Part shown: positions 44,098 to 50,301 of the stretch, in pieces | Layout: each line of letters starts with the position of its first letter | Position numbering within the stretch: the stretch's first letter is position 1 | Source: Microbacterium caowuchunii | Lineage (GTDB): Bacteria; Actinomycetota; Actinomycetes; Actinomycetales; Microbacteriaceae | Direction of reading: 5' to 3' | Assembly: GCF_008727755.1 (NCBI RefSeq) | Contig: NZ_CP044231.1 | Location: 496,001 to 560,000, forward strand | DNA length: 64,000 nt | The notes under the pieces: generated by a model | Told to the model about the DNA's origin: nothing | The model's input: only the letters and a program-made list of their open reading frames with translations | The model's database searches: none | Program-made: the position numbers and the translations under genes

Positions 44098-44257
44098 AGG
44101 GCCGGTCGGAGAGGCTTCCGACCGGCCCTTTTCCCTTTGCACCAAGAGAGTCCTGCAATCACATGTCGGTAGCCGCCACAGCAAAACAACTACCGTGCCC
44201 ACACTGTATAACGAACACATAACGCAAGGGAAGACTTCGGCGTTATCTTTCCGTTAT
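44098..44257. repeat. dispersed element, copy A
   Basis: A 160-base block repeated, with substitutions, at 46885-47042 and partly at 50247-50301. It contains a 13-bp terminator hairpin (44098-44110 with 44117-44129, followed by TTTTCCCTTT), a conserved middle with an identical 19-base run ending CACATGTCG, and an array of hexamers: ATAACG at 44208 and 44219, CGTTAT at 44241 and 44252. Within each pair the spacing is 11 bp; the pairs face each other across 16 bases. A TATACA/TACAGT -10-like sequence on the minus strand overlaps the first pair. It may be a regulated promoter or a small-RNA gene. Confidence 0.75.
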
Positions 44258-44329
44258 CTCCCGTGGGGTGGAAGTTTCGGGCGTCGTGCTGTCCTCAGAA
44301 CGTTCTGGTGCTGCCGACTGCCTTATGCG

Positions 44330-44695
44330 CTACCGCATGCCGATCAGGTGGTCGTCACCGTCCGCGAGTTCGGTGAAGTCGAGATCTTGTTCGCGGAGAT
44401 ACGCGGCTGCCGCGTGCGCCCCGTTGAGGAGGCGTGGGGATGATTCGTGTACCAATAAGGTTCAGGGCCTCAGCTCGCATCGCCGTGTGGTAGCCAGCGG
44501 GCTGAGCCGATGGGTCGTCGATCGGGTCGATTCCGTGGAGGTCGACTGAGGTGAGGCATGCGCCCGCTGAGTAGCCGCCGTAGACAAGGCCTGGAGAGTC
44601 AGCAAGCGCTGACGCCAGTTGTGCTTCGGTCGCCGCGCGGGCGAGCGCGGTCCAGGTCACTCCTGGGAATTCGCAGCAGGCACATCTGCCTCCCG
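44330..44695 (-). pseudogene. peptidase E (S51) remnant
   Basis: Two reading frames together resemble the C-terminal half of a dipeptidase E-type S51 peptidase. The first (down to about 44430) has SPGLVYGGYSAGACLTSVDL, which includes the nucleophile Ser in the GYSAG motif, then HGIDPIDDPSAQPAGYH. The second frame continues NGAHAAAAYLREQDLDFTEL and stops at 44330-44332. A frameshift lies around 44425-44440 and the N-terminal half, with the start, is missing. The remnant lies between copy A of the dispersed element and a DUF222/HNH gene, as expected for a decaying, rearranged site. Confidence 0.6.
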
Positions 44696-44725
44696 GTCAA
44701 AGTCGCTGTCATCGGACGGCCATGG

Positions 44726-46156
44726 TCAGAACGGTGGCGGGTCGCCGTCGGGGGTGAAGGTGACCGGCGGTCTGCCGGTGCCGACGAGGGATGCCGCGGT
44801 GGTGCCGGGGAGGGCGGGTCCGGGTGGGTGGTCGGTGTAGGTGTGTCCGGCGGGGGAGGTCCATTCCAGGATCCCGGCGGGGAGTTGTCTGACCCGCCAG
44901 GGTGTGGCGTGTTTGAGGGTGTGGTGTCCGCGGCAGAGGTGGGCGAGGTTGCCGGCGTCGGTGGGTCCGCCGTGGGCGTGGTCGCGGGTGTGGTCGATGT
45001 CGGAGCGGATGGCGGGCATGCGGCAGCCGGGGAATCGGCAGCGGTGGTCTCTGCCGCGGAGGAATCGTTTCAGGTCGGCGGTGGGTTGGTATCGGTCGGT
45101 GGTGAGCACGGCTCCGGTGATCGGATGGGTGAGGATCCGGTCCAACCCCGCACTGTTCCCGGCGAGGGTGCGAGCGGTGGCCGGGTCGATGGGGGAGGTT
45201 CCGGTGAGGTCGGCGGGGAGGTCGCTTCGCCCGAGGAGGGTGAGGACGGGGACGGTGACCTGCACGACCGCGCGGATCGCGCCGAGTCCGCCGTTCCCGT
45301 CGCCGGGAAGGTATGGGTCCGCACCAGGGGTCGTGGTGAGGAGCATGTCGGCGAGCAGGTCCGCGCGGATCTGATCGGTGGTCCGCTCATCCGACGCGAG
45401 GACCTCCGCGGGTGAGAGCTCCTCCTCCACTCCGCCCAGACTCTCCTGCTCCGCGCCCGCACCCGCCGCACCGGCACCCGACCCTGCTGCCACCCGCGCG
45501 CGTTCCCGGACGTCCTTCACCGCGGTGGCCTGTCGGGTGAGCCGGTCCAGGATCGCGTGCGCCAGCGTGGCCGGGAGGGTGACGATCAGTTCCGCCATCC
45601 CGTCTTCGAGAGGGAGGATCCGGACGCGGCGGTGTTCCCTCGCGTCCCGGTGCCGGTCGGTGAGCGTGCGGGGCTGCAGCGATTCCGCGAGCATCTGCAG
45701 CAGGGGTCTCGCCCGGTTGGGGGAGTTCTGCTCGCACTGCACGACCGCGGCCGCATCCAACAACGCCCGCGCTTCCGTATCCAGGGGTGCGCCGCATTCC
45801 ACGACCAGGTCGACGTGCTGGCGGAGGATCCGGCCCTCCTCGAATGCGGCCATCGTTTCCGGGTAGTGGTCGATGAGGGTCATCGCCCGGTTCATCCGGG
45901 CGAGCACGGACCGGTCCGAGTCGTGCCACGCCGCCGCGATCTCCGCTGCGACGGACCGCAGTGCCATTTCCTTCGCCTGCACGGAGTTCTTCCCGGCTTG
46001 GCGCAGCGCGAACGCTCCCGCGTCGGCGAGGAACCGGACCTCGCCCGCATCACCGGCGTTCTTCTGCGCCAGCACCTGCCGCGAGGTGGACACCAGCCCC
46101 GCCAGCACAGCGGCGTCCGCGTCGCTGGTGCCGAAGGGGAGTCTCGAGGTCGTCAT
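44726..46156 (-). CDS. DUF222/HNH endonuclease-signature protein, copy 1
   Basis: A 476-aa protein of the actinobacterial '13E12 repeat' type: an N-terminal helical DUF222 (about 1-300) and a C-terminal HNH domain with CRFPGCRMP, SDIDHTRDHAHGG and NLAHLCRGHHTLKH (zinc cysteines and H-N-H residues intact). Function is unknown; the HNH fold suggests nuclease activity. The ATG preceded by a G-run at 46156 was chosen; a longer in-frame start exists. A second copy at 56.1-57.6 kb is nearly identical through most of the protein and about 100 bases upstream. Differences concentrate in a linker near residue 225 and at the C-terminus. Confidence 0.9.
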   Translation of the reverse strand: MTTSRLPFGTSDADAAVLAGLVSTSRQVLAQKNAGDAGEVRFLADAGAFALRQAGKNSVQAKEMALRSVAAEIAAAWHDSDRSVLARMNRAMTLIDHYPETMAAFEEGRILRQHVDLVVECGAPLDTEARALLDAAAVVQCEQNSPNRARPLLQMLAESLQPRTLTDRHRDAREHRRVRILPLEDGMAELIVTLPATLAHAILDRLTRQATAVKDVRERARVAAGSGAGAAGAGAEQESLGGVEEELSPAEVLASDERTTDQIRADLLADMLLTTTPGADPYLPGDGNGGLGAIRAVVQVTVPVLTLLGRSDLPADLTGTSPIDPATARTLAGNSAGLDRILTHPITGAVLTTDRYQPTADLKRFLRGRDHRCRFPGCRMPAIRSDIDHTRDHAHGGPTDAGNLAHLCRGHHTLKHATPWRVRQLPAGILEWTSPAGHTYTDHPPGPALPGTTAASLVGTGRPPVTFTPDGDPPPF

Positions 46157-48800: not shown

Positions 48801-49561
48801 CCACCCACGTCGTCGGCGACACCGGTGTCCTGACCGGCCGTTCGCTGCGTCACATCCTCCGCAGCCCTGACACCATCCTCACCACCGCGGTCACGCCGGT
48901 CGCGCTGATGCTGCTCTTCGTCTACGTGCTCGGCGGCGCGATCGACACAGGATCCGACGAGTCCTACATCAACTACATGCTCCCGGGCATCCTGCTCATC
49001 ACGATCGCGTCGGGCGTGGCGTACACGGCATACCGGCTGTTCCTGGACATGCAGGGCGGGATCTTCGATCGCTTCCAGTCGATGCCGATCGCGCGCTCGA
49101 GCGTCCTTTGGGCACACGTGCTCACCTCACTGGTCGCGAACCTGGCCTCGATCGTCCTCGTCGTCGGTGTCGCGCTGCTGATGGGGTTCCGTACGGGCGC
49201 CTCGGTCGGGGCATGGTGTGCCCTCGCAGGCATCCTCATCCTGTTCACGCTCGCGCTGACCTGGCTCGCTGTCATCGCCGGACTCTCGGCGAAGACGGTG
49301 GATGGGGCGAGCGCATTCAGCTACCCGCTGATCTTCCTGCCGTTCATCAGCTCGGCGTTCGTGCCCACGGAGACGATGCCTGCCCCGGTCGCCTGGTTCG
49401 CCGAGCACCAGCCGGTGACGTCGATCGTGAACACGATCCGCGCGCTGTTCGCGCAGGTGCCGGTCGGGTCCGGCATCTGGATCGCCCTGGCCTGGCTGGT
49501 CGGCATCCTCGTCGTCGCCTACACCTTCGCTATCGCCATCTACCGCAGGAAGATCAGCTGA
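48797..49561 (+). CDS. ABC-2 type permease (DrrB-like)
   Basis: A 254-aa membrane protein with about six helices. Conserved elements: LRHILRSPDTILTTAVTPV, YINYMLPGILL, FDRFQSMPIARSSVLWAHV and the C-terminal PVTSIVNTIRALFAQVP. It partners the preceding ATPase as a drug or lipid exporter; PadR would be the sensor. The overlap with the ATPase is four bases. Confidence 0.9.
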   Translation: MTTHVVGDTGVLTGRSLRHILRSPDTILTTAVTPVALMLLFVYVLGGAIDTGSDESYINYMLPGILLITIASGVAYTAYRLFLDMQGGIFDRFQSMPIARSSVLWAHVLTSLVANLASIVLVVGVALLMGFRTGASVGAWCALAGILILFTLALTWLAVIAGLSAKTVDGASAFSYPLIFLPFISSAFVPTETMPAPVAWFAEHQPVTSIVNTIRALFAQVPVGSGIWIALAWLVGILVVAYTFAIAIYRRKIS

Positions 49562-49584
49562 GGGGAGACCTCCCCTCGGATGCC

Positions 49585-50244
49585 TCACCCGACGTCGATG
49601 ATCTCGCCCTCGCCGGGCATTCCCTGCGTCACGAGCGTGCTCGACCCTGCGAGTCGATAATCACGGAATGAGATGGGTAGGCCCCGCGCGAGCGACCAGT
49701 CCGCCGAATCGGTGGCGTGAAGGTGCACGTGCGGCTCCGTGCTGTTGCCCGAGTTTCCGCACTCGCCGACCTGGTCGCCCACCGAGACGGCATCGCCCGC
49801 CCGCACCCGCACGCTGCCCCGGCGCAGATGCGCGATCGTCAGGAACGGCCCGCCCTCGCCGAGGGACATGACGACGTGATTTCCCGCGATCGCGGCAGGA
49901 CCTGACCGTATGCGCATCTGCTGGGTCGTAGCGTAGGAGAGGAGCGCGATGACCGACCGCCGCGCGACATGATCGTCCTCGCCGTCGAGCGTCGAGAAGA
50001 CGACGCCTGTGGCGGGCGCGAGGATCGGTTGGCCGAAGCCCGTGAAGTGCTCCGGCGATTCGACCGATAGTCGGCTGCGCCACGAGGGCTGAGCGGAGCG
50101 GCCGCGCGCATCCACGGCGACGAAGTCGACGGCATACGTGAGGCCGAACAGATGGGTGCCGTGGCTCGGGATGCGGTGGGCCGGGCTGTTCTGTGTCAGC
50201 CAGCGTCCGCGGAACGGCGGTTCGAGGACGAGGGGATCGGGCAT
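49585..50244 (-). CDS. M23-type peptidoglycan peptidase-like protein
   Basis: A 219-aa protein of the LysM-less M23 type. HGTHLFGLTYAVDF gives an H-x9-D zinc pair and EPHVHLHATD the H-x-H pair, so the metallopeptidase site looks complete; GDQVGECGNSGNS is also typical. There is no signal peptide or membrane helix, unusual for a cell-wall hydrolase, so export or function is uncertain. Its promoter region contains the third copy of the dispersed element. Confidence 0.8.
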   Translation of the reverse strand: MPDPLVLEPPFRGRWLTQNSPAHRIPSHGTHLFGLTYAVDFVAVDARGRSAQPSWRSRLSVESPEHFTGFGQPILAPATGVVFSTLDGEDDHVARRSVIALLSYATTQQMRIRSGPAAIAGNHVVMSLGEGGPFLTIAHLRRGSVRVRAGDAVSVGDQVGECGNSGNSTEPHVHLHATDSADWSLARGLPISFRDYRLAGSSTLVTQGMPGEGEIIDVG

Positions 50245-50246
50245 CG

Positions 50247-50301
50247 CAACTTCCGTGCGAAGAATCTATGAGTGCGAAGAATCTATAAGCGGGAGGTTAC
50301 G
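50247..50301. repeat. dispersed element, copy C (partial), with 17-bp tandem duplication
   Basis: CAACTTCCGTGCGA is shared with copy B, and hexamer-like ATAAGC (50285) and GTTACG (50296) keep the 11-bp spacing. A 17-base unit (GTGCGAAGAATCTAT plus GA or AA) is duplicated in tandem at 50255-50271 and 50272-50288. On the minus strand the duplicated unit carries TATAGATT/CATAGATT, possible -10 elements for the M23-like gene that starts at 50244. The hairpin half of the element is missing. Confidence 0.65.

Follow-up and report, generated by a model that had tools for sequence, protein, structure and literature searches.

Small RNAs under OmpR-type regulators include MicF and OmrA/B, which are controlled by OmpR, and Mcr7, which is controlled by PhoP. 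OmpR-type winged helices bind 11-bp repeats, and one protein of this type, MtrA, is a regulator of cell-wall and osmotic stress. The published account of Corynebacterium glutamicum MtrA gives the consensus (A/G)TAACAATttn(A/G)TAACAAT with an 11-bp pitch, together with a position rule by which a site near the −10 element represses and a site upstream of the −35 element activates (PMC3353115). Published MtrA targets include rpf, ripA, mepA and nlpC.

The window analysed here is a stretch of 64,000 nucleotides from Microbacterium caowuchunii (contig NZ_CP044231.1, positions 496,001–560,000), in which the original prediction described three dispersed elements (copies A, B and C) with hexamers at 11-bp spacing. 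The hexamer pairs of A and B are present as described. Copy A contains the direct pair ATAACG-N5-ATAACG (44208–44224) and, after 16 bases, the inverted pair CGTTAT-N5-CGTTAT (44241–44257); the corresponding pairs of copy B are ATAACG-N5-GTAACG (46994–47010) and CGTTAT-N5-CGTGAT (47026–47042), separated by 15 bases. A scan of the window for RTAACG-N5-RTAACG with fewer than two mismatches returns just these four pairs, and allowing up to two mismatches gives eight matches, a number also attained in seven of 100 shuffles. Exact RTAAC-N6-RTAAC occurs six times in the 3.26-Mb genome, with three of the six located within A and B, and the reversed control does not occur. Positions 44098–44185 and 46885–46972 are 93% identical and constitute longer repeats that end in the two arrays. 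A and B are not free-standing elements; they are the upstream ends of two minus-strand units of ∼160 bp.

Read along the minus strand, the unit consists of a distal pair, a proximal pair, a −10-like TANNNT element, a hairpin (P1), a near-invariant core of ∼26 nt and a terminator-like hairpin. In copy A, the distal pair (ATAAC-N6-ATAAC; 44241–44257) is inverted relative to the proximal pair, which reads GTTAT-N6-GTTAT on the RNA strand (44208–44224) and is followed by the −10-like TACAGT (44203–44208). The predicted small RNA of ∼102 nt (44097–44198; 118.8 bits with covariance model R1, fold z score −4.4) comprises P1 with the loop UUUUGCUGUGG (44167–44195, supported by covariation), the core UGUGAUUGCAGGACUCUCUUGGUGCA (44138–44163), which is one base away from the consensus of the family alignments, and the terminator-like hairpin (44097–44131, also supported by covariation). 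Copy B has the distal pair ATCAC-N6-ATAAC (47026–47042), the proximal pair GTTAC-N6-GTTAT (46994–47010), the −10-like TAGAGT (46989–46994) and a predicted RNA of ∼101 nt (46884–46984; 112.1 bits with R1). Its fold z score of −2.5 is equalled or bettered by three of 200 shuffles. The sequences of both copies were included in the alignment behind R1. Alignment and covariation place P1 of copy B at 46954–46981 and its terminator-like hairpin, with one pair broken, at 46884–46918; the core UGUGAUUGCAGGACACUCUUGGUGCA (46925–46950) is identical to the consensus of the family alignments. The P1 stem is GGAAG/CUUUC in copy B and GGUAG/CUACC in copy A. All of these features lie on the minus strand, as does the DUF222 gene between the two copies (44726–46237; PF02720, E = 1e-17).

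The unit is widespread in the Microbacteriaceae, a large family whose members live in soil and on plants. It is detected by blastn in 34 of 35 Microbacterium genomes, with no match in the remaining one or in one further genome of the genus (G502), and model R1 finds it in 240 of 299 family genomes representing 70 of 85 genera. Retesting 40 R1 negatives with a second model recovered three extra units. Most carrier genomes have a single covariance-model match, and the named carriers include the plant pathogen Clavibacter. Both hairpins covary by five measures, none of which was reached in any of 500 shuffles. Among 69 distinct rows, 20 of the 28 pairs of the written structure vary on both sides (shuffled mean 12.8); none of the 500 shuffles reaches 20 two-sided pairs, and slid controls give 5–10. 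A pairing of the loop UUUGC with GCAGG of the core as a pseudoknot was considered and is not claimed. It is broken in two units (L066 and L305), and covariation is silent on it because loop and core are almost invariant. The diverged unit L312 partly keeps this pairing. Seven genomes of the order outside the family gave matches at E values of 0.0015–0.0095, which were not accepted as homologues; the one match examined in full (L140) is without loop, core and promoter.

No family of Rfam 15 matches the unit at its gathering score. Over positions 43800–50700, the search returned PtaRNA1 over the 3′-terminal part of copy A (26.1 bits, with 47 needed; E = 0.06) and otherwise one unrelated match (E = 0.99), and in six named loci there was nothing with E ≤ 0.5. 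Among the matches listed from the open-access literature, seen partly as abstracts and listings, there is no description of the RNA. A protein-coding reading was rejected: one-base length changes between invariant blocks argue against a reading frame. The terminator hairpin is followed by a poor run of T.

Of 80 named units, 60 are followed on the same strand by a MarR-type gene, mostly within ∼250 bp, an arrangement that would suit a cis-acting leader or attenuator of that gene. We regard such a role as very improbable. In six of eight Cryobacterium-named units the unit is flipped in place between the same neighbours, so that it is not the leader of its neighbour; the MarR gene is upstream on the opposite strand in five Cryobacterium units and absent from the fetched stretch in six Microbacterium-named units, some units of that genus having other neighbours. 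The 3′ hairpin is, moreover, strong and terminator-like, and the genes 3′ of the window copies are an ORF without a Pfam match, the DUF222 gene and an MFS gene. The position of A and B on either side of the DUF222 gene, and the presence of DUF222 near 12 of 86 Microbacterium-type units, could instead be taken as the mark of a functionless dispersed repeat or the end of a mobile element. This reading is scarcely credible: DUF222 is found in none of the fetched stretches of 117 units of the other type, genomes mostly have one match, often at a conserved place, the core is near-invariant and accompanied by compensatory changes, and collections of phages, plasmids and viruses gave no match at the sensitivity used. 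A single repeat family unrelated to genes, the case named at the outset as contrary to a regulatory reading, fails because the repeat family itself looks like a gene family. The covarying structure, the promoter- and terminator-like ends and the independence of neighbours lead us to predict that the unit is a gene for a trans-acting small RNA. Complements of loop and core k-mers in 2.1 Mb of loci are scattered, with no recurrent target.

The predicted promoter is conserved to different degrees along its length. The proximal pair RTAAC-N6-RTAAC is present in 162 of 164 distinct units, and the distal inverted pair in 110 of 164, with no match to a strict distal-pair pattern in 37 of 162 units. 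The gap between the two pairs is 8–10 bp in 63 and 16–18 bp in 47 of the 110 units, two classes that differ by about one helical turn. Behind the proximal pair, all 160 promoters scored have T as the last base of TANNNT, its sixth; the TA is already fixed by the search pattern of the pair. At 17-bp spacing, 35 of the 160 promoters match the −35 element in at least four of six positions (26/63, 9/47, 0/32 and 0/18 in four promoter groups). The proximal pair holds a fixed position relative to the −10-like element, both being predicted promoter elements.

The assignment of the repeats to the OmpR family gains support from the published MtrA consensus, which has the same 11-bp pitch (PMC3353115), and the proximal pair has both the half-site and the pitch of the MtrA site of Corynebacterium. 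The genome encodes an MtrA (NF040689, 385 bits against a cutoff of 300; nearest PDB chain 2gwr). In other genera, a pair of at least 9/10 precedes a predicted lytic transglycosylase gene on the same strand at 13 of 29 loci, and each of these pairs is equalled by at most five of 200 shuffles; 11 of 27 promoters carry the pair when the two loci that suggested the test are set aside. No same-strand pair of at least 9/10 was found in 16 of the 29 promoters, the M. caowuchunii transglycosylase promoter has no good pair, and its mtrA has no pair upstream. Exact pairs also occur at seemingly unrelated genes, such as those for sugar transport. The 60 exact-pair regions that we hand-picked from the matches listed in 60 family genomes and from the pairs of the M. 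caowuchunii genome comprise additional RNA units, genes for sugar transport, an infC/DUF1844-like gap (three), an hpf/secA-like gap (two) and transglycosylase genes (three); rows with GTAACACGTGAGTAAC were excluded as what we take to be 16S rRNA genes. A link to the orphan regulator encoded at 18.9–19.8 kb of the window is not supported: this protein scores 162.9 bits with the MtrA model against the required 300 and falls below the cutoff of all 25 NCBIfam models listed, and its gene has no pair of its own above chance.

Two other candidate regulators of the same small RNA deserve consideration. GlnR boxes likewise have an 11-bp pitch (PMC10704036), and GlnR, which would make this a nitrogen-stress RNA, was favoured at first because the M. 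caowuchunii amtB promoter carries GTAAC-N6-GTAAC. Scoring of 30 family amtB promoters weakened this idea: the box GTNAC-N6-GAAAC is present in 21 of them and in none of the 164 RNA promoters. GlnR is encoded in 281 of 299 family genomes and in 238 of the 240 RNA carriers, the two exceptions (G084 and G307) being marginal RNA matches, but also in 43 of 59 genomes without an R1 match, and co-occurrence is undecisive because GlnR is nearly universal. Control by GlnR is rated improbable. Somewhat less improbable, although still unlikely, is control by another OmpR-type protein or by the winged-helix protein that is encoded immediately upstream in many genera and that lacks a receiver domain (PF00486 being the sole match of its counterpart in this genome). 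Of 80 named units, 29 have a Trans_reg_C gene upstream in the same orientation and six more have one beside an inverted unit, and 11-bp repeats are the established target of OmpR-type winged helices. Yet the likely counterpart in M. caowuchunii is ∼28 kb from copy B and the array is kept, 888 kb of loci, many with the winged-helix gene, contain no exact pair outside the RNA units, and the pair is found again at a gene for a cell-wall hydrolase. The suggestion of MtrA made with the original prediction has been strengthened by the near-matches before the transglycosylase gene and by the different GlnR box in the same family. On our reading, the window carries two copies of a gene for a predicted family-wide small RNA, with A and B as their predicted promoters and MtrA as the likely regulator.

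Copy C does not belong beside A and B as a third element of the same kind. It has one imperfect pair only, ATAAGC-N5-GTTACG (50285–50301), which on the minus strand is a weak, degenerate GTAAC-N6-CTTAT. Adjacent to it, 31 bases (50247–50277, minus strand) are 81% identical to the −10 element and first RNA bases of copy B, a likeness with a genome-wide E value of 0.46; this stretch is partly doubled, with a 17-base tandem at 50255 and 50272. The pair does precede an M23 peptidase gene (49585–50244, minus strand; PF01551, E = 5.8e-11), as had been proposed, and is much weaker than those of A and B: the best pair in the 200 bp before the gene scores 8/10, which is reached by 157 of 300 shuffles. 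Copy C may be read as a degenerate promoter fragment before the M23 gene, one that taken by itself does not stand apart from chance.

In the mechanism that we propose, the unit would be transcribed from ∼10 bp past the −10 element to the second hairpin, and phosphorylated MtrA dimers would bind each 11-bp pair. MtrA at the distal pair, upstream of the −35 region, would activate, and MtrA at the proximal pair, between −35 and −10, would block RNA polymerase, so that RNA output would go up and down with MtrA activity. Of all the steps, this dual mode has the least secure footing, and it is put forward tentatively. Acting in trans, the RNA would use its near-invariant loop and core to pair with mRNAs or to bind a protein, and copy C would be what decay has left of an A/B-type promoter, now in front of the M23 gene. 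More speculative still is the complete picture, in which MtrAB has an RNA arm across the Microbacteriaceae: the small RNA would serve as a band-pass reader of MtrA (distal on, proximal off), its loop and core would carry an envelope-stress signal to many mRNAs or to an RNA-binding protein, and hydrolase genes would be tuned by the same sites. If true, a whole family (70 of 85 sampled genera) would share a regulatory RNA, and a central actinobacterial two-component system would have a route into post-transcriptional control. The promoter layout predicts that the RNA level is highest at intermediate MtrA activity, and the jump in pair spacing of one helical turn between lineages would provide a natural experiment for learning how the effects of OmpR-type dimers add up on DNA.

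The described MtrA regulons of Corynebacterium, Mycobacterium and Streptomyces resemble this system in the 11-bp direct repeat, the RTAAC half-site (Corynebacterium), sites near −10 or upstream of −35 and cell-wall hydrolase targets (PMC3353115, PMC6265350, PMC5650626). They differ in that here the best-kept pair precedes an RNA gene and there are two pairs, usually inverted; among the matches listed for MtrA and small RNAs, no title concerns an MtrA-controlled small RNA. Actinobacterial GlnR promoters have in common with the unit an OmpR-type protein, the 11-bp pitch and a GTnAC half-site, whereas their GTNAC-N6-GAAAC box is missing from all 164 RNA promoters. The Streptomyces RNA scr5239 is likewise a small RNA of actinobacteria that is conserved across a taxon, and its pairing motif GCUGCGG agrees with the loop GCUGUGG in six of seven letters, which is a lead only; unlike the unit, it has 159 nt, five stem-loops and other control (PMC4365011). 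MicF, OmrA/B and Mcr7 are similar as intergenic small RNAs with their own promoter and terminator under an envelope- or stress-sensing response regulator (predicted in the present case), whereas the unit described here has, as features of its own, a double-pair promoter and a core that is nearly invariant across the family.

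The hexamers reported for copies A, B and C all lie where the original prediction had placed them. Copy A carries ATAACG-N5-ATAACG at 44208 and CGTTAT-N5-CGTTAT at 44241, and copy B carries ATAACG-N5-GTAACG at 46994 and CGTTAT-N5-CGTGAT at 47026. Copies A and B are parts of longer repeats (93% identity over the 88 bases adjoining the arrays). The exact pair RTAAC-N6-RTAAC occurs six times in the genome (3,262,719 bases), with three of the occurrences within A and B, and the reversed control pattern is absent from the same genome. No third full copy of the unit was found in the genome by blastn with copy B as the query. 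The single pair claimed for copy C is present at 50285, but is imperfect, and its score was reached by 157 of 300 shuffles. Copy C shares 81% of 31 bases with copy B across the latter's −10 region and first bases, and this stretch is partly tandem-duplicated; we read copy C as a decayed fragment. It does sit at the M23 peptidase gene, directly ahead of the ATG, and a regulatory role is possible, since mepA is listed among the MtrA targets (PMC3353115).

In the alignment, the minus-strand unit consists of the distal pair, the proximal pair, TANNNT, a hairpin with loop UUUUGCUGUGG, then the segment CAUGUGAUUGCAGGACACUCUUGGUGC and lastly a long GC hairpin. Both hairpins and a proposed loop pairing show standard pairs in 98.2% of cells over 38 distinct sequences, and 10 of the 26 pairs carry double changes; the observed values were reached by none of 500 shuffles. 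Among 69 distinct rows including other genera, double changes occur in 20 of 28 pairs, compared with a mean of 12.8 in shuffles, which ignore relatedness, and with 5 to 10 pairs in slid controls, which correct for it. The proposed loop pairing contributed no variation to this signal. The first stem contains compensatory changes between copies A and B, and the single-sequence folds of the four sequences tested are better than those of shuffles (z of −2.5 to −4.4). A protein-coding reading is unlikely because one-base length changes separate the invariant blocks.

The copy B unit (161 bases) is present in 34 of 35 genomes of the genus, own genome counted, and in none of 23 genomes of other genera, at the sensitivity of blastn (58 genomes); a further Microbacterium genome (G502) gave no match. 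Covariance model R1, built on the RNA part, matched 240 of 299 genomes of the family Microbacteriaceae, in 70 of 85 genera. A second model that includes the promoter (R2), run on 40 of the 59 R1-negative family genomes, recovered three more full-length units and the 3′ hairpin part only in five genomes, with no match in 32. By a count from tables, 33 of the 59 R1-negative genomes are no larger than 2.0 Mb; others of up to 4.1 Mb are also negative. In a sample of the order (198 genomes), seven outside the family gave weak matches (E of 0.0015–0.0095), and the one examined in full is without loop, core and promoter. Scanning named genomes for a DNA pattern gave at least 119 stretches; the 80 listed bear the names of family genera, or of bins or strains with no name below family rank, as judged against the 40 child taxa listed of the family's 71. 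Outside those 40 fall Naasia, Glaciihabitans, Galbitalea, Lacisediminihabitans and Protaetiibacter, which we take to be members. No match was found in phage and plasmid collections (blastn, copy B), in viral contigs (DNA pattern) or in Rfam 15 at the gathering score. Among the open-access matches listed for small RNAs in Microbacterium, Microbacteriaceae or Clavibacter, or with MtrA, no title or abstract opening describes the RNA. Several Microbacterium genomes contain a second, diverged copy 0.9–8 kb off (L042, L043, L044, L047, L048, L049 and L051), and in most of them the linker ahead of the terminator is shorter; the second copy is possibly a paralogue with a role of its own. Genome G196 (L395, L403) has two tandem short units (82–90 nt), about 1 kb apart, that were missed by R1.

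The predicted promoter retains GTTAY-N6-GTTATA in 162 of 164 distinct units, and the hexamer whose first base is the last T in the second half-site reads TANNNT in all 160 units with enough flank, its TA being fixed by the search pattern and its final T free. A −35 element of 4/6 or better at 17-bp spacing accompanies 35 of 160 promoters. By a strict pattern, 110 units have an inverted distal pair, separated from the proximal pair by 8–10 bp in 63 and by 16–18 bp in 47, two classes about one helical turn apart; 15 further units have a direct distal pair and 37 have none. The diverged units L305, L306, L312 and L313 also carry the pair, all four having been chosen through a matching pair.

Of the 80 named units listed, 60 have a MarR-type gene downstream in the same orientation, and 29 are preceded by a same-strand winged-helix gene that lacks a receiver domain; the product of the latter is a candidate regulator of the unit. 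Six of eight Cryobacterium-named units are inverted between these neighbours, which puts the winged-helix gene on the opposite side and strand in six and the MarR gene in five. Because it is inverted in place, the unit is the leader of neither. DUF222 genes occur near 12 of 86 Microbacterium-type units versus 0 of 117 others (window 44726–46237; L058, L060, L167, L180, L207, L257, L048, L237 and L252), in six loci outside the window at 56–272 bp past the unit on its strand, and the surroundings are perhaps a preferred DUF222 landing site. An imperfect inverted repeat at 47158–47201 (arms TACCTAGT/ACTAGGTA), just ahead of the PadR gene at 47222, is perhaps a PadR operator.

Candidate regulators other than the winged-helix neighbour were MtrA and GlnR. 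The MtrA site is (A/G)TAACAATttn(A/G)TAACAAT in C. glutamicum (PMC3353115) and G/T-T-G/A-A-C-C-N5-G-T-G/T-A-C in Streptomyces, where it covers the −10 of bldD (PMC5650626); MtrA targets include ripA, rpfA-C, mepA, nlpC, betP and proP (PMC6265350, PMC9602371). A transglycosylase gene, predicted by PF01464 (24.5 bits; cut-off 21.3), has a same-strand pair at 9/10 or better near its start in 13 of 29 loci, two of the 13 having prompted the idea (30 fetched; L392, with a match beginning at residue 124, dropped). For each of these pairs no more than 5 of 200 shuffles scored as high, and one additional locus has a pair on the opposite strand. The genome's own mtrA has no site upstream and its own transglycosylase gene no good pair, which count against MtrA. 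The regulator at 18.9–19.8 kb fails the curated cut-off as MtrA, and the GlnR of this genome, identified by PF21695 and PDB 8hih/8hig, is encoded by another gene. The GlnR box GTNAC-N6-GAAAC is found in 21 of 30 family amtB promoters versus 0 of 164 RNA promoters, and RTAAC-N6-RTAAC in 1 of 30 versus 162 of 164. Sequence thus favours MtrA over GlnR as the predicted regulator, since GlnR has a different box at amtB.

Other pairs were seen. The genome's own amtB promoter (L275) has GTAAC-N6-GTAAC where the 21 family promoters carry the GlnR box. Two loci from two genera (L336, site 2007; L343, site 2034) share a conserved GTTACAGGCTCGTTAT pair followed by conserved GTACCAAGC and a hairpin, between genes that are presumably hpf-like and secA-like. 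An intergenic GTAAC-N6-GTAAC is conserved in L321, L334 and L342, between what we take to be infC-like and small DUF1844-like genes.

The anatomy of the unit is as read from the alignment; for the function of the RNA, the sign of control and the targets we infer the following. The distal pair would most likely recruit RNA polymerase and the proximal pair most likely occlude it, so that the RNA would be made at intermediate MtrA activity and would act in trans; complements to the loop and core are scattered in the 2.1 Mb of loci searched. In C. glutamicum, MtrA represses from sites near −10 and activates from sites upstream of −35 (PMC3353115).
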